Shown piece by piece: positions 47,694 to 57,613 of a DNA stretch of 64,000 nucleotides (its first letter is position 1; every line of letters begins with the position of its first letter). The notes under the pieces are model-generated. The model did not search any database. It had not been told where the DNA came from and worked only from the letters and a program-made list of their open reading frames with translations. A program made the translations under genes and the position numbers. The stretch comes from Erysipelotrichaceae bacterium (GTDB taxonomy: Bacteria; Bacillota_I; Bacilli_A; Erysipelotrichales; Erysipelotrichaceae), in assembly GCA_017539105.1 (NCBI GenBank), contig JAFYHQ010000040.1, positions 62,001 through 126,000 on the forward strand. The letters run 5' to 3'.

Positions 47694-49228
47694 CTGCTGC
47701 CTCCTTTCACATAACCCATGATCTGGAATGCCGTCGTGTTCCCGGAAGAATACGTCGGGAAATAACCGGACAGCGAAGAACCGTGTCCTCCCACAAAGAA
47801 CAGGCCCGGAATGGTCTGCTCCATGCCGGCAGCCAGCGTCCTGGAAGACATGCCGTCCCATTTCAAGGAAGCATAGCCATAGATCGATCCCTGCGGCGAA
47901 CCCATGTATCTGGCAAACGTGACAGGGCTGGCGATCTCGATCTCCTCGATATGCTCGCGGATCTTGTAGCCCATGGCTTCTTCCGCGTTCCTGATCAGCT
48001 GATCGGCAACCTCTCGTTTTGCCTTGACATAGTCTTCTTCGCTGACGTCTGCCCAAGCATCGCCGGTATAGGAAATGGTCAGCACAAGGATCGTCGTTCC
48101 TTCCGGACTGCAGTCCGGGACAGCCATATTCAGGCAGCAGGCATCCTGCGCATATTCTTTGCCGGACCTGGTCTTTGATTCCTCGCAGATGACTTTGGAA
48201 TCTTTGGTCGAACTGATGAATGTCGTATAATCCTTGATTCCGATCTCTTCGGGCGAAGCATCCAGTCCCAGAAAAACGCTGAAAGCTCTGAAGCCGTATT
48301 CTCTGGCGTTGATCTTTTTCAATTCGAATGGCGGAACCAGTGATTTATCATCAAGCAGTTTGCCATAGACGATCTCCGGATAAGCGTTGGAAGCGATAGC
48401 GGTTGTTTCGAATCTTCTTCCGTCATCCAGTTTCACTCCGCAGATCCTGCCGTTTTCCGTCAGTACCTTTGTCACTTCTTTGTTGTAGAGGAAGGCGCAA
48501 CCCAGTTCCGCTGCCCTGTTGGCGATAGCTACGGACAGAGAGTGCGATCTTGCCTTTGGCACGAAAGCGCCATTGACGAAGTATCCGTTCACCATCATCA
48601 GATATCTGCTCGCATCCACCGTATACATATCCGTTCCCTGGTAAGGCCAGTAGGCAGACAGGATATCGATGCACTTCTGACTCATGCCGAGCGCCTCAAG
48701 GAAATCGCCCGCGGACAGAGACATGATCCTCATGAAATTGGGATGTTCATTCCTTAAGACCTCAGGATCGATCTTTCCTCTGCAGGAACCGAGATATCCG
48801 ATACCTCTGGACATGTCTTTGGCAGCCGCAAAGAACCTCTCCATCGCCTCGACATCGTCCGGACAGATTTCTGAAATGAGCTGCATGACTTTTTCTTTTC
48901 CATGAGGGAAGGTGACATCCAGTTCCTTGACGCCATCTTTCTGTACCACATAGCGGAACGCATCCTTTACTGGAAGCATCTCTACCTCGATCCCCAGTTC
49001 ATCAAAAAGATGGCCCAGTTCCCCTCTGGCTTCTCCTTCACCGAAATCAGGAATCTCGTGCAGGGAAGCATCGAACTCGAATCTTCCCCTGACAAAACTG
49101 GTCGCGGCCCCTCCCGGGAGATTGTGTTTCTCTACGACCAGAACCTTCAGACCCAGCTGTGATGCCCGGCAGGCAGTCATCAGACCTCCGTTTCCGGCGC
49201 CGATCACAATGAGATCATATTTTTCCAT
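47690..49228 (-). CDS. CrtI/RetSat-type FAD oxidoreductase
   Basis: 512 residues. The FAD Rossmann motif is IVIGAGNGGLMTACRASQLG, followed by LPGGAATSF and a C-terminal FAD region (GLFFVGGHGSSLSGYFPT, SSGNTTAFQIMG), as in phytoene desaturase, carotenoid isomerase and retinol saturase relatives. These act on polyenes or other conjugated lipids, often needing reducing equivalents. Here a reductase-ferredoxin gene is coupled directly (ATGA), pointing to a reductive reaction. There are no other carotenoid genes in the window. Substrate unknown. It follows the Hsp70-like gene by 29 bases. Confidence 0.88.
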   Translation of the reverse strand: MEKYDLIVIGAGNGGLMTACRASQLGLKVLVVEKHNLPGGAATSFVRGRFEFDASLHEIPDFGEGEARGELGHLFDELGIEVEMLPVKDAFRYVVQKDGVKELDVTFPHGKEKVMQLISEICPDDVEAMERFFAAAKDMSRGIGYLGSCRGKIDPEVLRNEHPNFMRIMSLSAGDFLEALGMSQKCIDILSAYWPYQGTDMYTVDASRYLMMVNGYFVNGAFVPKARSHSLSVAIANRAAELGCAFLYNKEVTKVLTENGRICGVKLDDGRRFETTAIASNAYPEIVYGKLLDDKSLVPPFELKKINAREYGFRAFSVFLGLDASPEEIGIKDYTTFISSTKDSKVICEESKTRSGKEYAQDACCLNMAVPDCSPEGTTILVLTISYTGDAWADVSEEDYVKAKREVADQLIRNAEEAMGYKIREHIEEIEIASPVTFARYMGSPQGSIYGYASLKWDGMSSRTLAAGMEQTIPGLFFVGGHGSSLSGYFPTYSSGNTTAFQIMGYVKGGSR

Positions 49229-49257
49229 CAGACAGTTCTCCTTATATGTCTTGTTTA

Positions 49258-51171
49258 TTAACCCAACGGGATCTCTACGACTTCCGCCATCTTGGCCAGA
49301 CAGCTTTCGATCTGAACAGAAATCTCTTTCGCCAGACGCTGGCTGATTTCTTGACTCTTTTCCTGTTCAAGTTTCTCATAGAGATTTTCTTTTACCTGTT
49401 TGGAAATGAAATCAATCCTCGCTTTCAAATAGCTTTTCGGAATGACTTTCCTGACAGGATTCGGAATATTGGAATTGAGAAGCATCTCCTGCATCTTGTC
49501 CTTGCCTAATGCCAGGATCAGCAAGGATACCACAGCACCCGCAACGATGCCCGGCAATCCGTTGGCGATCAAAGCGATGCCGCCTCCTCCGCAAAGAAGG
49601 GCAACAACGATAGAGATGGTCGCATCGATCAGCCAGGTGATCTCTTTGACCGCAAACAGGTTTTTCGCTTCCACATTGATTTCAATATCGCTCATCGATA
49701 AGAAAGAATTCAAAGATAAAGAGGAATACGGCACATTATGTCTGACACAGATCGGCATCGTATATTCTTCCAGTTCAAAAGAAACGGTCTTCAGCCATTT
49801 GGCGACCGGCTTCATCAGCAGCGCTCTTGCCTCGTTGGTATGCAGCCAGGTATCGATCTCCTCCTGCATGACCGGGTCGATGTCGGACAGTTTCTCGATC
49901 TCGCCGTTGCGCCATCTCTCGCTGATTGGCAAAGCGACATATTCCAGGATCGGCTCCACCATCGTCTCTACCGCATCGCGATAGAGATCGCTGATATGCT
50001 TCTCCACGATCTGCTCCACTGTACTGGAATCGATCAAAGCGCTGACTTCTTCCTTGAAGCCTTTCAGTTCATCATCGATCTTTCCGCACCATGCCAGACC
50101 GGAAGCGACCGAGAATTCCGGTTCCGCACAAGTAATGACAACCGCATCCTCAAACACTTCCTGACACCAGCTGCGGATGATCGCCATCTTCGAGACTCCT
50201 CCGGTCAGGAAGACCAGTTCCGGCTGTTTCTCTTTGATCGCGGCTTTCGCCTGGACCAGGCTTTCCATAAAGACTTCCTTGAAGGACCTGTCGGATAACC
50301 GTTCGACTTTCTGGTTCAATAACTGATCCGCAATCTCAGGATCGATCTTCAATACCAGCTTGATCGGTATCAGACCCTGACGGATCGAAACCGACTGGCT
50401 GCAGTCGTTCGTGCTCCAGTATTCTTCATCTGAAAAATACTTTTCTTTCAGTCTTCTTGCGGCAAAATCGCAATAGCTTCGCCAAGCTTCGCTTTCTTCG
50501 AAGATCTTACGGATCTTGCTTTCGTTCGGTGATGCTTTCAGGGATTCCTCCAGCAGGATCTCATCCATCACGCCTCCACCCAAAAAGACTTCTCCGCCTG
50601 TTTTCAGTTCCACTTCCTTGCCGCCCATGATATAGGCAAAGTCGGTCGTTGAAGATCCGATATCGACGACCAGTACCGGCTTGTTCAGGATATCGTAACC
50701 GACCTGCAGATGCTTGGACTGACATGCGGACACCAGAGCCGCTCTCGATTCGGAAATGATCTTTGTCGGTGGATATCCGGTCTTCTCAAAAATGCTTCGA
50801 TATTCCTCGCGGGCGATCTTGTCCCAGCCTGCCGGACAGCCGATATAGAAGCAGCAGTCGTCTCCTTTGATCAGTTCTCCATTCAGATACAGTTCCCCCA
50901 GCACGCCCGAGGCAAAACTTTTCACATCTTTGGCTGCTTCCGGATCCGTCAGGAAACGGCTCTTGAAACGTTCCTTCCTTTTTGTCGCATCCGGCGCGTA
51001 GCAGGCCCCTTCACCGATCAGGAGCTTTCCATCCCGAAGCAAGGCATAGGCCGTAATAAAACTCTTTGCTTCATTGATCGGAAGCACGACGGGTACAAGG
51101 TCCTTTGTCTTATCAAAGCGGGTGACCGCGCTTTCGGCATCACCCAAATCAAACCCATAGAATCGATCCAT
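49258..51171 (-). CDS. Membrane-anchored Hsp70-like ATPase
   Basis: About 637 residues. The actin/Hsp70 ATPase fold is seen in FYGFDLGDAESA (phosphate 1), PVLVVDIGSSTTDFAYIMG (phosphate 2) and LVFLTGGVSKMAIIRSW (adenosine/connect), with IGCPAGWD. A DnaK-type peptide-binding domain is not visible. Instead the C-terminal third has a hydrophobic hairpin (about 510-550, ATISIVVALLCGGGGIALIANG, LPGIVAGAVVSLLILAL) and a helical tail, so it is probably anchored. ATG at 51177 is an alternative start. Encoded right after the gene with a GrpE-like tail; the pair could be a dedicated chaperone and exchange factor. Confidence 0.8.
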   Translation of the reverse strand: MDRFYGFDLGDAESAVTRFDKTKDLVPVVLPINEAKSFITAYALLRDGKLLIGEGACYAPDATKRKERFKSRFLTDPEAAKDVKSFASGVLGELYLNGELIKGDDCCFYIGCPAGWDKIAREEYRSIFEKTGYPPTKIISESRAALVSACQSKHLQVGYDILNKPVLVVDIGSSTTDFAYIMGGKEVELKTGGEVFLGGGVMDEILLEESLKASPNESKIRKIFEESEAWRSYCDFAARRLKEKYFSDEEYWSTNDCSQSVSIRQGLIPIKLVLKIDPEIADQLLNQKVERLSDRSFKEVFMESLVQAKAAIKEKQPELVFLTGGVSKMAIIRSWCQEVFEDAVVITCAEPEFSVASGLAWCGKIDDELKGFKEEVSALIDSSTVEQIVEKHISDLYRDAVETMVEPILEYVALPISERWRNGEIEKLSDIDPVMQEEIDTWLHTNEARALLMKPVAKWLKTVSFELEEYTMPICVRHNVPYSSLSLNSFLSMSDIEINVEAKNLFAVKEITWLIDATISIVVALLCGGGGIALIANGLPGIVAGAVVSLLILALGKDKMQEMLLNSNIPNPVRKVIPKSYLKARIDFISKQVKENLYEKLEQEKSQEISQRLAKEISVQIESCLAKMAEVVEIPLG

Positions 51172-51173
51172 CG

Positions 51174-52046
51174 TCATTCTCCTGCCGCCAGGCCTTTACG
51201 TAATACGGTCCCTGCAATCACCAGAGCAGGCCGTATCGTTCCTGCGCTTTCGGAAGGCATCAGTTCAAAATATGTCCGGTTGCTTCCATCGTAATCCACA
51301 ACATCGATATTCTTGCGATGCAGATAGAATCTGATCTCAGAAACGATCTGCTTGCTGTATTCGTTATCTTCGCCATAGGCCGATTCCAGCAGATCGGACA
51401 AGAGCTGGACATCTTCCTTCTTCAGTCTGTCCTTTTCTTCCATCAGCGCCTTCTTCTCTTCCAGCAGTTCCTCATTCCTGACCTGCTCCAGGATCCGATC
51501 CATCGTCAGTACGCTGTTAAGCAGGATATGATAAGTCTTCTCTCCATCCGGGATCGTTTCGGCATAGAGTTCCTGCTTGTTTTCTTCTTTCTTTCTGGCG
51601 GAAAAGATCCCGGAAAGGAAAAGGAAAAACGCCGCTGCTGCCGCAACCGCCAGTCCGATAATCATCTCGTTGCTTGGCGGAAAAGAATCCGTCAGATAGA
51701 TCAGCTCCGCACCCGCTCCCGCAAGAGCCAGGATCCCCAGAAACAGGAATATCCCGAACCAGACCGATCTCTTCGGTTTGCTGATACCGGGACGGTACTG
51801 CGATTTCGACCAGATGGTCGACTCGCCGTCACAATTCAAAAAACCGGCATTGGAAGTCAGCGCTTCCGTCAGATATACCGCGGTATTCCTGACACGTTCG
51901 CTTTCTTCTTTCTCGTTGTATGCGGAAAGGATGCGACTGAGCTGTTCCTCTACGGTCGCAACCGATTCTGCCGACGATTTCGCTGCCGCCATATTATTTA
52001 AAAAACGTTCTTTATCTCTTTCAAGAAGTGCCTGCATCGTTGCCAT
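51174..52046 (-). CDS. Two-span membrane protein with GrpE-like C-terminus
   Basis: 290 residues. A coiled-coil N-terminal region (LSRILSAYNEKEESERVRNT) precedes two membrane helices (about 95-115 and 128-150: FGIFLFLGILALAGAGAELI, IIGLAVAAAAAFFLFLSGIF). A second coiled coil follows (EELLEEKKALMEEKDRLKKE). The last 60 residues (FYLHRKNIDVVDYDGSNRTYFELM, SAGTIRPALVIAGTVLRKGLA) resemble the C-terminal beta-domain of GrpE-type exchange factors, including a G-TIRPALV--G--L-KG pattern. The pairing with an Hsp70-like ATPase gene supports this reading. Ribosome site GGAGGAG. Confidence 0.65.
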   Translation of the reverse strand: MATMQALLERDKERFLNNMAAAKSSAESVATVEEQLSRILSAYNEKEESERVRNTAVYLTEALTSNAGFLNCDGESTIWSKSQYRPGISKPKRSVWFGIFLFLGILALAGAGAELIYLTDSFPPSNEMIIGLAVAAAAAFFLFLSGIFSARKKEENKQELYAETIPDGEKTYHILLNSVLTMDRILEQVRNEELLEEKKALMEEKDRLKKEDVQLLSDLLESAYGEDNEYSKQIVSEIRFYLHRKNIDVVDYDGSNRTYFELMPSESAGTIRPALVIAGTVLRKGLAAGE

Positions 52047-52096
52047 AAAGCTACTCCTCCTGCTAATTGAATTCTAACACAAAGCGACCCATTGAT

Positions 52097-52122
52097 AAAA
52101 AGCATGTTTCCATGCTTTTTTG
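52097..52122. terminator. Bidirectional terminator
   Basis: AAAAGCATG-TTTC-CATGCTTTTTT. On the minus strand it has a GAAA loop and ends the hydrolase transcript 50 bases after its stop. Confidence 0.8.
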
Positions 52123-52171
52123 TTTATTGACGGCTCTTGCCATGCGTTTCCTTGTGATGATTCAGAGACAG

Positions 52172-52981
52172 CTAGAAACAGCTTAGAACGAATTCGGCCG
52201 TCTGATCCACCAGTTCTTCCGACTGTTTTGGATGATCGTCCCACAGACCGAATCCGTGGTTTGCGTTTTCCACCACAACAAGCTTTTTCTTTTTCTCTGT
52301 CGTCAGTATCTGATAAGCCCGTTTTCCGACCGATACATCGACCGTAATATCCGCGTCCCCATGTACGACGACGACATTTCCTTCATAACGCTTCACGCAA
52401 TCCAGCGTGTCATAGCGCATCAGGTCTTCAAAGAATTCTCTGCTCAACGGAAGGATCTTCCCATCAAAGAAATTCAGGAAGTCGGCATGACCTTTTTCTT
52501 TCGCTTCTTCGTAATATAGGTGTCCGTCCGCTGCGCTTACGAAATTCGTCAGTTCTTCAAACGGCATGATTGCTGCAGCCCAGAGACCCAGCACCTGAAA
52601 ACGCGGATCTCTTTCCATAACATACACGGAAGCGATCCTGCCACCCATGCTGTATCCGACCATGACCATCTTGTCCGTATCAATATCATAATGTTCCATC
52701 ATATAAGAGACACAGCTGTCGATATCATCCATGCTGTTACGCATGCAGTAATGCTCGAATCCTTCTGTGCTTTCTCCGCAACCGGACTGATCCATCATGA
52801 TGCTATTGAATCCATGCTTTGAGAGGATCTCCGCAACCTGTTCAAAACGTCCTCCTTCGGTACGTTCGGCACAGAATCCATGAACGAATACTGCCAGTCC
52901 CGGATGTGGATCTTCTGCGGTCAATATCGTGCAAGGGATCTCTGTGTTTCTTACGGAAGGAATCGTTGCTGTCTGTTTCAT
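52172..52981 (-). CDS. Alpha/beta-hydrolase (S33/BAAT-like)
   Basis: 269 residues. The nucleophile elbow is VGYSMGGRIAS (Ser near 118), preceded by FVHGFCAERTEGG and followed by VVHGDADITVDVSVG (acid) and VENANHGFGLWDD (His). Family of lysophospholipase-like serine hydrolases; substrate unknown, esterase or thioesterase likely. No signal peptide. It is a monocistronic gene between two terminators. Confidence 0.85.
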   Translation of the reverse strand: MKQTATIPSVRNTEIPCTILTAEDPHPGLAVFVHGFCAERTEGGRFEQVAEILSKHGFNSIMMDQSGCGESTEGFEHYCMRNSMDDIDSCVSYMMEHYDIDTDKMVMVGYSMGGRIASVYVMERDPRFQVLGLWAAAIMPFEELTNFVSAADGHLYYEEAKEKGHADFLNFFDGKILPLSREFFEDLMRYDTLDCVKRYEGNVVVVHGDADITVDVSVGKRAYQILTTEKKKKLVVVENANHGFGLWDDHPKQSEELVDQTAEFVLSCF

Positions 52982-53051
52982 ACTGTCTTCTTTCTACGGC
53001 ATAGCCGATCTTCGTTTTCATCATAACAGGTTTCTATCGTTTTTCACAGGA

Positions 53052-53077
53052 TAGAAAAAGCAGCCTGTGCTGCTTTT
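53052..53077 (-). terminator. Terminator of the nucleoside operon
   Basis: AAAAGCAGC-CTGT-GCTGCTTTT immediately after the nucleoside hydrolase stop codon. Confidence 0.8.
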
Positions 53078-53085
53078 CAAATTAA

Positions 53086-54021
53086 CTACTGATATCTTTT
53101 ATCCAGGATATCCAGGGCTTCAAAGAGGGTCTGAATAAACTCTTCTCTTTTCACATCCCACAGTACCGTTGCCGGATGGATGAGGTCCTCTGTTTTCGCC
53201 AGATCCACGACTGTCATGCCGCGGGTATATTCTCCATTCAGTTCGACATGGACTTCATATTCCTTTGTTTCAAACAGTTCCGGTCTCAACAGATAGATCA
53301 GCGGCGTCATATCGAAGATCGCCGTACGGTCCCAGCCCCGATCTACCGCATATCTGCCGTAGAACTTCATAAGATCATAGAACAGCTGCGAAGCTCTGCC
53401 TCTGCCGTTGGCTTCTTCCGCTTCCGACAGAAGGATGCTGCCCGCATAACAGACTTCCAGGCCCGCCATAATGACCTTTGCCCCGGAACCGAAAACGATC
53501 TTCGCTGCTTCCGGATCATGATAGATATTGAACTCGGACTTCAGCTGGATATTGCCACCGTTTACCGCTCCGCCCATGATGGCGATCGCCTGGATCTTTT
53601 CTTTCAGATGCGGATACGTTTTCAGAAACAAGGCCATATTGGTCAATGGACCGATGCACAGGAAGGTCACTTTCTCTGAAGAGTTCTCCAGTGTTTCCTT
53701 CATGAACTCAATCGCATGAAGTCCGGTCACGGTACGCTTTGCCTCAGGGAGGATCGGACCATCCAGACCGCTTTCTCCATGTGCCTTCGGCTGTACTTCC
53801 AATGCTTTGATGATCGGAGCATCATATCCCATACTGACAGGATAATCCGTTTCCAGCAGGGTCTGTACTCTCAAGAGGTTGTTTGTGACTTTCTCCAATG
53901 TCTGGTTTCCGGCGACGGTCGTGAACCCAAGGATATCAAACGTTTCCGGATGCGCCATGGCAACCATGGAAGCGATGATATCGTCGTGTCCCGGATCGCA
54001 GTCGATGATCAGATGATACAT
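53086..54021 (-). CDS. Inosine-uridine-preferring nucleoside hydrolase
   Basis: 311 residues. Metal-binding N-terminus IIDCDPGHDDIIAS (DCDPGxDD), then TVAGNQTLEKVTNN and AIMGGAVNGGNIQLKSEFNIYHDPEAAKIV carry the ribose-binding Asn, Glu and Asp. It cleaves the N-glycosidic bond of ribonucleosides to free base and ribose in the cytoplasm. Last gene of the operon; its start shares a base with the stop of the permease gene upstream. Confidence 0.95.
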   Translation of the reverse strand: MYHLIIDCDPGHDDIIASMVAMAHPETFDILGFTTVAGNQTLEKVTNNLLRVQTLLETDYPVSMGYDAPIIKALEVQPKAHGESGLDGPILPEAKRTVTGLHAIEFMKETLENSSEKVTFLCIGPLTNMALFLKTYPHLKEKIQAIAIMGGAVNGGNIQLKSEFNIYHDPEAAKIVFGSGAKVIMAGLEVCYAGSILLSEAEEANGRGRASQLFYDLMKFYGRYAVDRGWDRTAIFDMTPLIYLLRPELFETKEYEVHVELNGEYTRGMTVVDLAKTEDLIHPATVLWDVKREEFIQTLFEALDILDKRYQ

Positions 54022-54959
54022 TACTGTTCCTCGACCTTGCCGTGCTTGATACGGTAGTAATTAATGATGCTGGCTGCCGTAACAAAGACGAAGACGGCAA
54101 AATACGGAATCGTTCCAACCAGGTCGGTCGGGAAGATCGTGGATGTATTGAACACGATCGATACGGCACGGAATGCCGCAAAGATCAGCGAGCTTATCAG
54201 CAATGCCCCGTAGTTTCCGTTTGCGATACCGTTTGCCGCGATACCCATCCAGCCCTGTCCTGCGACCATTCCTTTTGAGAAGATCTTCAGATAGTTCAAA
54301 GACAGATACATGCCGCCCAGTGCCGCAAAGAAACCGGACAGAATCAGAGACAGCACCTGCAGAACCTGCACGTTGATGCCTGCCGTTTTTGCCGCATCTG
54401 CATTCAATCCGCAAGCCCGCATACGCATGCCTAACGGCGTCTTATAAACAAGGATATACAGAACGATCAGAATGATCCAGCACAGATAAGTCAGAAGATA
54501 CTGACCGCTGATGATTTCTCCCAGGATCGGAATCGAAGAGATTCCCGGAATATCCACTGCCGGAAGGATCGGCGTCATCAGCGAAGCGCTGGTTCCTTTT
54601 TCTCCCGCGATCTGATACAGGAAGAAGATCGCCAGAGAATCCGCGAACGTATTCAACGCGATACCGACGAAAATCGCATCCGCGCCCATTTTCATCGAGA
54701 AGAACGCAATCAGCAGCGCCGTCAGGATACCGATCAGCAAGCCGATCAGGCATCCCAGATAGGCATTCTGTGTGATGTAGCTTCCTAAAATACCGGCCAA
54801 AGCGCTGAATGTCATGATCGATTCGATCGCGATATTGACGATACCGGTCGAGCTCGAAATGAAGGCAGCGATCGATGCCAGCAGGATCGGCGTCGAAAGA
54901 CGCACGATCGACAGCAGGAACTTCATTGTGAACAATGATTCAAAAATGGTTTTAAGCAT
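54021..54959 (-). CDS. Nucleoside ABC transporter permease (NupQ-like)
   Basis: 312 residues with about nine membrane helices. SSSTGIVNIAIESIMTFSAL near the N-terminus and TPLGMRMRACGLNADAAKTAGI carry the conserved signature of the BMP-type sugar/nucleoside permeases (branched-chain-like family). It is one of two permeases of the transporter. It overlaps the larger permease gene by 8 bases. Confidence 0.93.
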   Translation of the reverse strand: MLKTIFESLFTMKFLLSIVRLSTPILLASIAAFISSSTGIVNIAIESIMTFSALAGILGSYITQNAYLGCLIGLLIGILTALLIAFFSMKMGADAIFVGIALNTFADSLAIFFLYQIAGEKGTSASLMTPILPAVDIPGISSIPILGEIISGQYLLTYLCWIILIVLYILVYKTPLGMRMRACGLNADAAKTAGINVQVLQVLSLILSGFFAALGGMYLSLNYLKIFSKGMVAGQGWMGIAANGIANGNYGALLISSLIFAAFRAVSIVFNTSTIFPTDLVGTIPYFAVFVFVTAASIINYYRIKHGKVEEQ

Positions 54960-56058
54960 CTTTCTTTAAGCCCTCCTGTAACAGTTTCTTTTCTCTGAAT
55001 CCACGCAGGAAGTACTGGGAGGAAATCAGAAGGATGACGATACCTTCAACGATCGCGACGATTTCCGAAGGAACCGCCCTGTCAACGAAATAAAGGACCT
55101 GTGTACCCTGTTCCAGATACTTGATCAGGAACGCGGAAATGACAATACCGATCGGATTGTTCCGTCCAAGCATGGACAGCAGCATTCCGGAGAAGCCGAT
55201 GCCCGTAAGGGATTTATCCGGCTGATAGAAGCTCGTCTGCGTCAGCAGCTGACATGCCGCTCCCATACCCGCCAGCACACCGGCGATCGCCGAAGTGATC
55301 AGCGCCAGCTTGAAGGAATTGATACCGGAATATTCCGAGAACTTCGGGTTGCTTCCGCTGAGGCGGATCTGGTAGCCGAGCTTGGTTTTAAACATGATGA
55401 TATACAGAACGACGGTGCATACGATCAGCAGGATCAAACACGCGGAAATACGCAGCGGTTCATACAGATAGCCGATCTTTGCGGTTTCCAGGTAATCCTT
55501 GGAACCGACCGTGTTGGTCGTAGTCGTTAACAGGTAGTTACGGATGATAAACATCGAAATACCGGAGTAGATCGAGTTCAGCATCAGCGAGACAACCATT
55601 TCATTCGTCCCGAATTTCGCTTTCAGGAACGAAGGAATGACCATCAGGATCCCTCCCGTGAGAGCACCCGCCAGGATGCACAATACGGAATGCAGGAACG
55701 GATTGGTCGTGATCGGGTTGCATGCGACTGCCGCAACCGAAACGCCGGAAATGATGAAGATGCCTTCCGCACCCAGGTTGAACGCGCCCGACTTGAACAG
55801 GATGCCGGCAGCCAGACCTGCGAAAGCATAAGCGATGAAGCTTTCAATGACCGAACCGAGATAACGCGTCTTGCGGAACGGGCCGGTCAGTATCGTTACC
55901 AAAGCGTTGACCGGGTCCTCGCTAATCAGGCAAAGGATCACAAACGTAATGATAAAAGCAATGCAGATGGAAATGAGAATCTTGACTGTATCGAATACCT
56001 TGGAATTTGTAATCGAAAGCATGTTTCTCGCTTCACGTTCCTTCTTGGTATCAGGCAT
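54952..56058 (-). CDS. Nucleoside ABC transporter permease (NupP-like)
   Basis: 368 residues, nine or ten membrane helices. FKSGAFNLGAEGIFIISGVS and FKTKLGYQIRLSGSNPKFSEYSGI match the YufP/NupP branch, and AGMGAACQLLTQTSFYQPD is typical near the last helices. Pairs with the smaller permease. Start at 56058 follows GGAGGT and overlaps the ATPase stop by 8 bases. Confidence 0.93.
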   Translation of the reverse strand: MPDTKKEREARNMLSITNSKVFDTVKILISICIAFIITFVILCLISEDPVNALVTILTGPFRKTRYLGSVIESFIAYAFAGLAAGILFKSGAFNLGAEGIFIISGVSVAAVACNPITTNPFLHSVLCILAGALTGGILMVIPSFLKAKFGTNEMVVSLMLNSIYSGISMFIIRNYLLTTTTNTVGSKDYLETAKIGYLYEPLRISACLILLIVCTVVLYIIMFKTKLGYQIRLSGSNPKFSEYSGINSFKLALITSAIAGVLAGMGAACQLLTQTSFYQPDKSLTGIGFSGMLLSMLGRNNPIGIVISAFLIKYLEQGTQVLYFVDRAVPSEIVAIVEGIVILLISSQYFLRGFREKKLLQEGLKKDA

Positions 56059-57613
56059 TCAAAGCACCTCCAATCTCTTCTTCGCTCTGATGTCTCGCAC
56101 CGAGCATATACAGACCCAGCTCCTGGTCATTCGTCTTGCTGGCGTCCGGGAAGTATCCTGCAATCTGCCCGTCGAACATGACGATGATGCGGTCGGACAG
56201 ATCCAGGACCTCATTCAGGTCTGCCGAGACAAGCAGGATGCCCGCGCCCTGGTTTCTGAGCTCCAGAAGCTTGTGGTGAACCAGCTCCGCCGAACCGATA
56301 TCGATGCCGTGCGTCGGCTGTTCCGCAATCATCAGATCCGGGATCGTGTTGTATTCTCTGGCGACGACGACCTTCTGTACGTTACCTCCGGAAAGGCTGC
56401 CGACTGCCGTCTTGTTGTCCTGAGTCTTGACCGTAAATGTATCGATCAGATCATCCGCGACCTTGTTGATGGCTTTCTGATTCATAAAGAACTTGCCATT
56501 GATATCTTCCCTGTCATAATAAGTGGAAATGATATTATCGGAAATCGGCAGCGATGCCGCGATGCCATCACCCATTCGATCCTCCGGAATATACGCCATG
56601 CCAAGCTCTCTTCTCTGTTTGACATTCATCTCCAGAGCATCCTTGTCACAGACCGTGATCTTGCCCTCATACGCCGTCTTCTCCAGACCGGTCAGACACT
56701 TGACCAGCTCCTGCTGTCCGTTGCCCTCAACTCCGGCAACACCCAGGATCTCGCCCTTCTTCACCGCAAACGACATATGATTCAGAACCGGCTTGCCATT
56801 GCGTTCCATATACAGATCTTCCACTTTCAATACCTTCTCATCATGGAAATCTTCATGGGTCTTGAATTGATCGAAATCTTTCTCCAGATCTCTTCCGATA
56901 ATCAGATTGGTCAGCTGTTCCATCGTCAGTTCTTCATTCTTATAGGTACCCTTCGATACGCCATTACGAATGACAGAAATCCGGTCGCTGATCTTCTTCA
57001 CTTCTTCCAGTTTGTGAGAAATGAAAAGGATCGTGTGCCCCTGTTCCTTGAACTGACGCAGCTGTTCAAACAGTTTTTCCGTTTCCTGCGGCGTCAGCAC
57101 GGATGTCGGTTCATCAAGAATGATGAGCTCGGCATTCCGGTACAGGGTCTTCAGGATCTCGACCTTCTGCCTCTTCGCAACCGACAATGTCGATACCTTG
57201 GCAATAACATCAAGTTCGAAATGATACTTATCCGAAAGCTCCTGCGTCCTTCGGACAGCTTCCTTGCGATCGATGAAAATACCGCTCTTCGGTTCGGAAC
57301 CCAAGATGATATTGTCAACGACGCTGAAAGACGGAATCAACATGAAGTGCTGATGCACCATTCCGATCCCGGCCTCAATCGCATCCATGGATCCATTGAA
57401 ATGGACTTCCTTCCCTTTGTAGGTAACCGTTCCGCTGGATGGAGCCTCGATCCCGAAAATGATCTTCATAAGCGTAGACTTTCCGGCACCGTTCTCACCG
57501 ACGATCGAATGAATCTCACCTTTTTCGAACTCCATGTTAATGTCACGATTCGCCACGGTTCCATTCGGATAAACCTTGGTTACATTATCGAGTTTCAATA
57601 TGGTTTCTTTCAT
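56051..57613 (-). CDS. Nucleoside ABC transporter ATPase with two nucleotide-binding domains
   Basis: 520 residues, a tandem ATPase of the RbsA/NupO type. First domain: Walker A GENGAGKST, signature LSVAKRQKVEIL (variant of LSGGQ), Walker B LIILDEPTSVL. Second domain: weak Walker A GVEGNGQQEL, signature LSGGNVQKVVVAREY, AEQPTHGID. The lack of a normal second Walker A is usual for this family. Ribosome site TAGGAG. Powers import with the two permeases and the upstream lipoprotein. Confidence 0.94.
   Translation of the reverse strand: MKETILKLDNVTKVYPNGTVANRDINMEFEKGEIHSIVGENGAGKSTLMKIIFGIEAPSSGTVTYKGKEVHFNGSMDAIEAGIGMVHQHFMLIPSFSVVDNIILGSEPKSGIFIDRKEAVRRTQELSDKYHFELDVIAKVSTLSVAKRQKVEILKTLYRNAELIILDEPTSVLTPQETEKLFEQLRQFKEQGHTILFISHKLEEVKKISDRISVIRNGVSKGTYKNEELTMEQLTNLIIGRDLEKDFDQFKTHEDFHDEKVLKVEDLYMERNGKPVLNHMSFAVKKGEILGVAGVEGNGQQELVKCLTGLEKTAYEGKITVCDKDALEMNVKQRRELGMAYIPEDRMGDGIAASLPISDNIISTYYDREDINGKFFMNQKAINKVADDLIDTFTVKTQDNKTAVGSLSGGNVQKVVVAREYNTIPDLMIAEQPTHGIDIGSAELVHHKLLELRNQGAGILLVSADLNEVLDLSDRIIVMFDGQIAGYFPDASKTNDQELGLYMLGARHQSEEEIGGALNA

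Follow-up and report, generated by a model that had tools for sequence, protein, structure and literature searches.

Within the window, the 64,000-nucleotide stretch of DNA that was analysed, two minus-strand genes encode membrane proteins that we call G and H (Table 1). G comes first in the order of reading, and its stop codon overlaps the start codon of H by 4 nt (ATGA). With this order and overlap, translational coupling of the two genes is therefore likely on the sequence. The closest relatives of the pair (proteins about 91 to 95% identical) lie on contigs from goat and buffalo gut Erysipelotrichaceae assemblies. Between the upstream hydrolase gene and the pair lies a terminator-like hairpin, although it is weak evidence alone, with five such sites in the region against a mean of 2.8 in shuffled sequence. 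An RNA family search returned no match. The adjoining stretch (52172-57613 of the window) carries a nucleoside hydrolase-like gene, a hydrolase gene, and ABC transporter genes for one ATPase and two permeases. This is likely a nucleoside uptake operon; its gene order is kept in the sister genome, where the pair does not lie beside it.

Table 1. Genes and features of the G-H locus in window coordinates.
Feature	Position	Strand	Description or basis
Gene G	51174..52046	-	290-aa two-helix membrane protein; AGGAGG ribosome site; predicted GrpE-like C-terminal domain
Shine-Dalgarno AGGAGG preceding G	52056..52061	-	Sequence reading
G N-terminal helices, residues 4-65, predicted cytosolic	51852..52037	-	AlphaFold model, pLDDT about 91-97
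G transmembrane helix 1, residues 95-118	51693..51764	-	Hydropathy and model
G transmembrane helix 2, residues 126-149	51600..51671	-	Hydropathy, model and positive-inside charges
G region GrpE-like in predicted shape, residues 157-290	51177..51578	-	Model and full-length alignment to 1dkg_A, 8gb3_E and 4ani_A
G small beta domain, residues 245-290	51177..51314	-	Most conserved segment of G
Gene H	49258..51177	-	639-aa membrane Hsp70-type ATPase; 80 homologues at 55-95% identity
H nucleotide-binding domain, residues 1-371	50065..51177	-	Hsp70 structures at Z 29-32; invariant catalytic residues
H helical domain, residues 372-495	49693..50064	-	Model helices; replaces linker and beta-sandwich
H membrane hairpin, residues 506-560	49498..49662	-	Hydropathy; mean identity 64.5%; model confidence low here
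H C-terminal tail, residues 621-639, MAEVVEIPL	49261..49317	-	78% mean identity
Terminator-like hairpin, 10-bp, between upstream hydrolase gene and G-H pair	52097..52120		

H belongs to the Hsp70 superfamily as a divergent member. The Pfam HSP70 family (PF00012) matches it at 31.5 bits (cut-off 20.6) over residues 112-367, that is, over the ATPase part only, while MreB_Mbl (PF06723) reaches 19.9 bits and stays below its cut-off of 27. In the AlphaFold model (pLDDT 78.8, pTM 0.72), residues 2-371 match Hsp70 nucleotide-binding domains at Z 29-32 by structure comparison. Ssz1 is the top fold match in that comparison. Foldseek matches have E values of about 1e-13, and ranks 1-35 are all Hsp70s. 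Mean column identity across an alignment of 46 homologues is 69%, and eight residues (D10, K72, P115, R123, E143, D172, T177, and D179) are invariant in all 46. By profile alignment, which places K72 within one position, we take their DnaK counterparts to be D8, K70, P143, R151, E171, D194, T199, and D201, respectively. P115 and R123 are thus the Hsp70 proline-switch pair, invariant in 46/46. The first phosphate motif of H, FDLGDAES, departs from the Hsp70 form DLGTTxS. Of the PROSITE signatures, neither HSP70_1 nor HSP70_2 occurs in any of the 46 homologues, and HSP70_3 occurs in 20 of them.

The part of H that follows the ATPase domain bears out the suggestion of the earlier note that this Hsp70-type ATPase has no clear peptide-binding domain and carries a membrane hairpin instead. 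The model has no beta strand beyond residue 349, and there is therefore no beta-sandwich substrate-binding domain; the hydrophobic interdomain linker motif of Hsp70s was found in 0/46 homologues. Model helices at residues 353-383, 386-423, 430-445, and 448-479 are followed by the hairpin and C-terminal helices. Hydropathy places a single hydrophobic hairpin at about residues 507-562, and the tail motif MAEVVEIPL is present in all 46 homologues. On its predicted structure, H is an Hsp70 engine without a client-binding domain.

The two membrane helices that had been read in G are likewise seen both by hydropathy (about residues 93-119 and 125-151) and in the AlphaFold model (pLDDT 87.7, pTM 0.62). 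Across 46 homologues, the loop between the helices is nearly uncharged and the flanks carry about 4.4 K/R each; this charge distribution would place the two termini of G in the cytosol, making it a predicted N-in, C-in hairpin. Computation thus gives an ATPase fold with its catalytic residues but no substrate-binding domain in H, and membrane segments in both proteins. Beyond its helices, the model of G has a 40-residue helix (168-207), two shorter helices (210-225 and 229-244), and six short strands within residues 248-288, and the protein ends in TIRPALV..G.VLRKGLA. Mean pairwise identity is 47% for residues 245-290, against 12-31% before residue 210, and F260, P264, P273, A274, and G285 of the beta domain are invariant. 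Outside residues 210-290, the rate of evolution of G is much higher than that of H. The conservation of this C-terminal part is what would be expected if it docks on H, a constrained partner that changes slowly.

The proposal that the C-terminus of G resembles GrpE divides along the line between structure and sequence. GrpE is built from a coiled-coil stalk helix, bundle helices, and a beta domain, in that order (PMC4753570), and residues 157-290 of the AlphaFold model of G have the same order of elements. Alignment with the GrpEs of E. coli, M. tuberculosis, and Geobacillus runs end to end, starting at the long helix and reaching the final residue. It covers 130 residues for 1dkg_A (Z 7.6), 124 residues for 8gb3_E (Z 6.8), and 127 residues for 4ani_A (Z 6.8), and these three separate GrpE entries stand within the top 40 of the 954 chains compared. 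These Z scores (6.8-7.6) fall in the range that the tool calls possibly common arrangements and are accompanied by rmsd values of 9-10 A, of which a bent long helix in the model could be the source. The resemblance is thus suggestive, and we place moderate confidence in a GrpE-like fold as predicted for the G C-terminus. A Foldseek search of G against the PDB gave no match below E 0.4.

None of the sequence comparisons supported the GrpE reading. The GrpE family PF01025 did not match the G of the window at E up to 1, and it is absent among the Pfam families listed for the 46 G members, although a single weak match might rank below those listed. The PROSITE GRPE signature was found in 0/46 G proteins, using a pattern that finds only 17 of 30 true GrpEs of relatives. 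HHalign of the G family against 7 and then 30 GrpE sequences gave a probability of about 1%. Profile searches between G and GrpE were null in both directions (the best match with a GrpE profile built here had E 0.13 and 3.2 bits), and phmmer and hmmsearch on the PDB found no sequence route from G to GrpE. The stretch TIRPALV..G..L.KGLA, which the earlier note took as a GrpE motif, does hold up as a conserved end of G. However, its segments are in reversed order, GrpE having QKGY and then RPAMV where G reads RPALV and then KKGL, and the motif is therefore not a simple colinear match to GrpE. Common descent of the two domains would mean that the final two segments have switched places in G; otherwise, the motif would be coincidental. 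Because all sequence tests fail, we call G “GrpE-like in predicted shape” and not GrpE.

A canonical GrpE is encoded separately in the same genome as the pair, in a gene (G000:C19:13815-14264) that is reported with one TAA within the matched stretch. When 368 genomes centred on a Lachnospiraceae genome were searched with PF01025, canonical GrpEs were also among the matches listed. A 385-aa GrpE at locus L162 was considered as a link between G and GrpE and rejected, as it belongs to a kinase/phosphatase/vWA operon. This operon (L162 926-5829) encodes a vWA-like protein, a PP2C-like phosphatase, a protein kinase-like product, the 385-aa GrpE-domain protein (PF01025 at 43.8 bits), and an Hsp70-like ATPase, and it resembles the themes of GrpE/HSP70 conflict systems. 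Matches of the G profile in other Bacilli were dismissed because they centre on the transmembrane region.

We show that the pairing of G with H is obligate. Relatives of H were found in 141 stretches of one genome collection, 80 of which were examined. Among the 75 loci with more than 900 bp upstream of H, G lies directly upstream on the same strand in 74, mostly within 50 nt, and overlaps H by exactly 4 nt (-4 spacing) in 16. At the one exception (L113), the G gene is on another contig of its genome; the assembly is metagenomic, and the split could be due to rearrangement or binning. G and H are also present in the same 17 of 147 related genomes. Conservation of the two genes together, on which the earlier reading of the pair depended, is thus borne out. 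Distances among G proteins track those among H proteins (r = 0.88, against at most 0.32 under permutation), a correlation that partly reflects shared ancestry. No other conserved neighbour accompanies G and H in the 80 loci, and the module contains no J-protein. PADLOC and Pfam scans of 92 neighbours showed everyday genes of metabolism and transport and no common theme, with isolated matches to defence models here and there.

The pair moves as a two-gene unit. In a sister genome (G005), the closest relative, the homologous block corresponds to window positions 49262-52083 only and lies at another locus, beside a ribosomal protein gene. Both flanking genes of the window are found on another contig of that genome without the pair, with an oxidoreductase-type operon between them. 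Since DNA similarity is confined to the two genes, the unit relocates as two genes, and since other genes are inserted between the same flankers, the site itself (window 49228-49258 and 52046-52172) is variable. No transposase is visible with the relocated unit. The G005 contig (L233 2953-11230) has several genes between the flankers of the pair, some of which resemble indolepyruvate ferredoxin oxidoreductase.

Diverged pairs extend the distribution of this architecture. A conjugative plasmid of Calothrix brevissima (AP018209.1) carries one between phage-type integrases, and no other plasmid carriage of the pair was found. Its H is 25.9% identical over 97% and scores 336 bits against the H profile. 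The G-like gene that precedes it aligns with G over 240 columns (HHalign E 1e-4), and its last segment (NYFDFEPS...TLAPALLKGDRLLRRGR) lies in a shifted frame. The annotated gene (L172 7997-8980; AP018209.1 9838-10821) ends early, with the conserved C-terminal segment in another frame. The frame change could stem from an error in sequencing, from decay of the gene, or from a frameshift. In a second diverged pair (L171), the H-like protein has 669 aa (88 bits), and the gene before it encodes a membrane protein of 349 aa that ends in RPIIISGEVRKKGLV. The assignment of this membrane protein as G rests on position, membrane helices, and that short motif. Both diverged pairs keep gene order and architecture.

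More distant relatives of H were also seen. A Blautia sp. locus on a second contig (L161 390-2666) encodes a distant 758-aa paralogue of H that scores 108 bits with the H profile and has a more extended hydrophobic region; no G gene was seen there, and the paralogue is directly followed by an unknown 334-aa protein and a 1176-aa HerA-like ATPase. A phage or viral origin of the pair was rejected, as three queries found no relative in viral contigs. A partial relative of the H ATPase domain (28% identity, E 1e-5) is present in a 636-kb uncultured phage (LR756504.1 389219-389932).

The explanation that we favour, with a probability of about 0.52, is that H is a mobile, membrane-bound Hsp70-type ATPase with G as its dedicated exchange-factor-like membrane partner. 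The nucleotide-binding domain of H would lie in the cytosol, tied to the membrane by the C-terminal hairpin, and ATP hydrolysis would be coupled through the helical domain to the hairpin and tail, in place of a peptide-binding beta-sandwich. G would be anchored by its two helices, and its cytosolic helix-plus-beta domain would dock on the nucleotide-binding domain of H as GrpE does on DnaK. There, the beta domain would promote the release of ADP, so that H would cycle only at the membrane surface. A possible output is the remodelling or clustering of membrane proteins. We infer both the contact between G and H and nucleotide exchange by G. Against this explanation stand the failure of every sequence test to tie G to GrpE, the structural scores of G within the range of common arrangements, the lack of a J-domain partner in the module, and the departure of the first phosphate motif of H from that of Hsp70. 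The broader form of this proposal is a mobile system, present in Firmicutes and on a cyanobacterial plasmid, in which a membrane Hsp70-type ATPase without a client domain is driven by its own membrane exchange factor, a second bacterial family of such factors with a GrpE-like fold that sequence does not reveal. We offer it tentatively, at somewhat under even odds.

The main rival keeps the membrane ATPase but removes the exchange factor. H could instead work at the inner membrane as a scaffold or an actin-like ATPase, in the style of MreB, FtsA, or ParM, assembling there via its hairpin, with G as a membrane adaptor or regulator whose GrpE-like shape is coincidental. The weak match of PF06723 to H is consistent with this, as are MreB5 at rank 36 of the Foldseek list with a similar E value, the partition protein phrog_691, which matches three family members, and the absence of both a substrate-binding domain in H and a sequence link between G and GrpE. 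However, Hsp70 structures, not MreB, fill Foldseek ranks 1-35 and lead the VIA list for H, HSP70 lies above its Pfam cut-off where MreB lies below, the proline-switch residues specific to Hsp70 are invariant in H, and three GrpE structures are in the top 40/954 chains for G. We therefore regard a scaffold as unlikely, though still a serious competitor. Far less room is left for H as a true folding chaperone that binds clients by its helical domain, with G as its ordinary GrpE. An Hsp70 nucleotide-binding domain beside a GrpE-like partner would invite that reading, but H has neither beta-sandwich nor linker motif, the module has no J-protein, and G fails the GrpE sequence tests in a genome that encodes a canonical GrpE elsewhere; we consider it very improbable.

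The mobility of the pair invites a different interpretation, in which it is a stand-alone conflict or membrane-stress system (e.g., anti-phage abortive infection), with G sensing an event at the membrane and releasing the activity of H. Its patchy presence (17/147 relatives), its relocation as a unit, and the copy between integrases on a conjugative plasmid all point this way. Predicted conflict systems also include Hsp70 and GrpE genes (PMC7159879), and the distant Blautia relative of H adjoins a HerA-like ATPase. Nevertheless, PADLOC gives no meaningful score for G or H, the 92 neighbours are everyday genes whose matches to defence models are single and scattered, viral contigs hold no copies, and neither protein has an effector-like domain. 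This makes a conflict role improbable in our estimation.

If G does reload H, it would represent a second kind of bacterial Hsp70 exchange factor, beside GrpE. Such a pair, with the client domain lost from the ATPase and a partner resembling an exchange factor, would be a case of the Hsp70 ATPase cycle put to new use in a machine of the membrane. The G-H pair is small, self-contained, and movable, and it is carried by some gut bacteria.

The system closest in outline is DnaK-GrpE (1DKG, 8GB3, 4ANI), with which the pair shares the nucleotide-binding domain of H and, in the prediction for G, one long and two short helices ahead of a six-stranded beta domain. In contrast to DnaK-GrpE, H lacks the substrate-binding domain and linker, both proteins are membrane-anchored, G has no detectable sequence similarity to GrpE, and the module includes no DnaJ. 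H also shares its ATPase domain with Ssz1 of the RAC complex and with other Hsp70 relatives that are not classical chaperones. To our knowledge, Ssz1 is not a membrane-hairpin protein and is not paired with a GrpE-like membrane protein. The actin-like ATPases MreB, FtsA, and ParM have the superfamily fold and roles at the membrane or in partition in common with H, but fold and motif ranking favour Hsp70.

Among exchange factors, the yeast protein Snl1 offers the nearest parallel to the role proposed for G. This ER-anchored BAG-domain protein was described in 2014 as the only known membrane-associated exchange factor for Hsp70 (PMC3962485), and it is tethered to the membrane with its active domain in the cytosol, as we propose for G. 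Unlike G, it uses a BAG domain, spans the membrane through a single N-terminal region, and serves soluble Hsp70s of the cytosol. A literature search of incomplete coverage found no description of a bacterial membrane pair like G-H.

Conflict systems with GAP1-N2 GTPases include HSP70-GrpE themes, among them an HSP70 domain without the peptide-binding domain (PMC7159879). They resemble G-H in combining such an Hsp70-type ATPase with a GrpE-type protein in Firmicutes. Their neighbourhoods, however, contain the GTPase, DnaJ or TPR proteins, and a recognisable GrpE, whereas G-H consists of two genes only, both encoding membrane-bound proteins, none of the GTPase, FNIII/DnaJ, or TPR genes is a conserved neighbour in the 80 loci, and no GTPase theme appears among the top families of the 92 neighbours. 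We provisionally consider the G-H pair to be novel, with G forming an uncatalogued family whose action may resemble that of GrpE.
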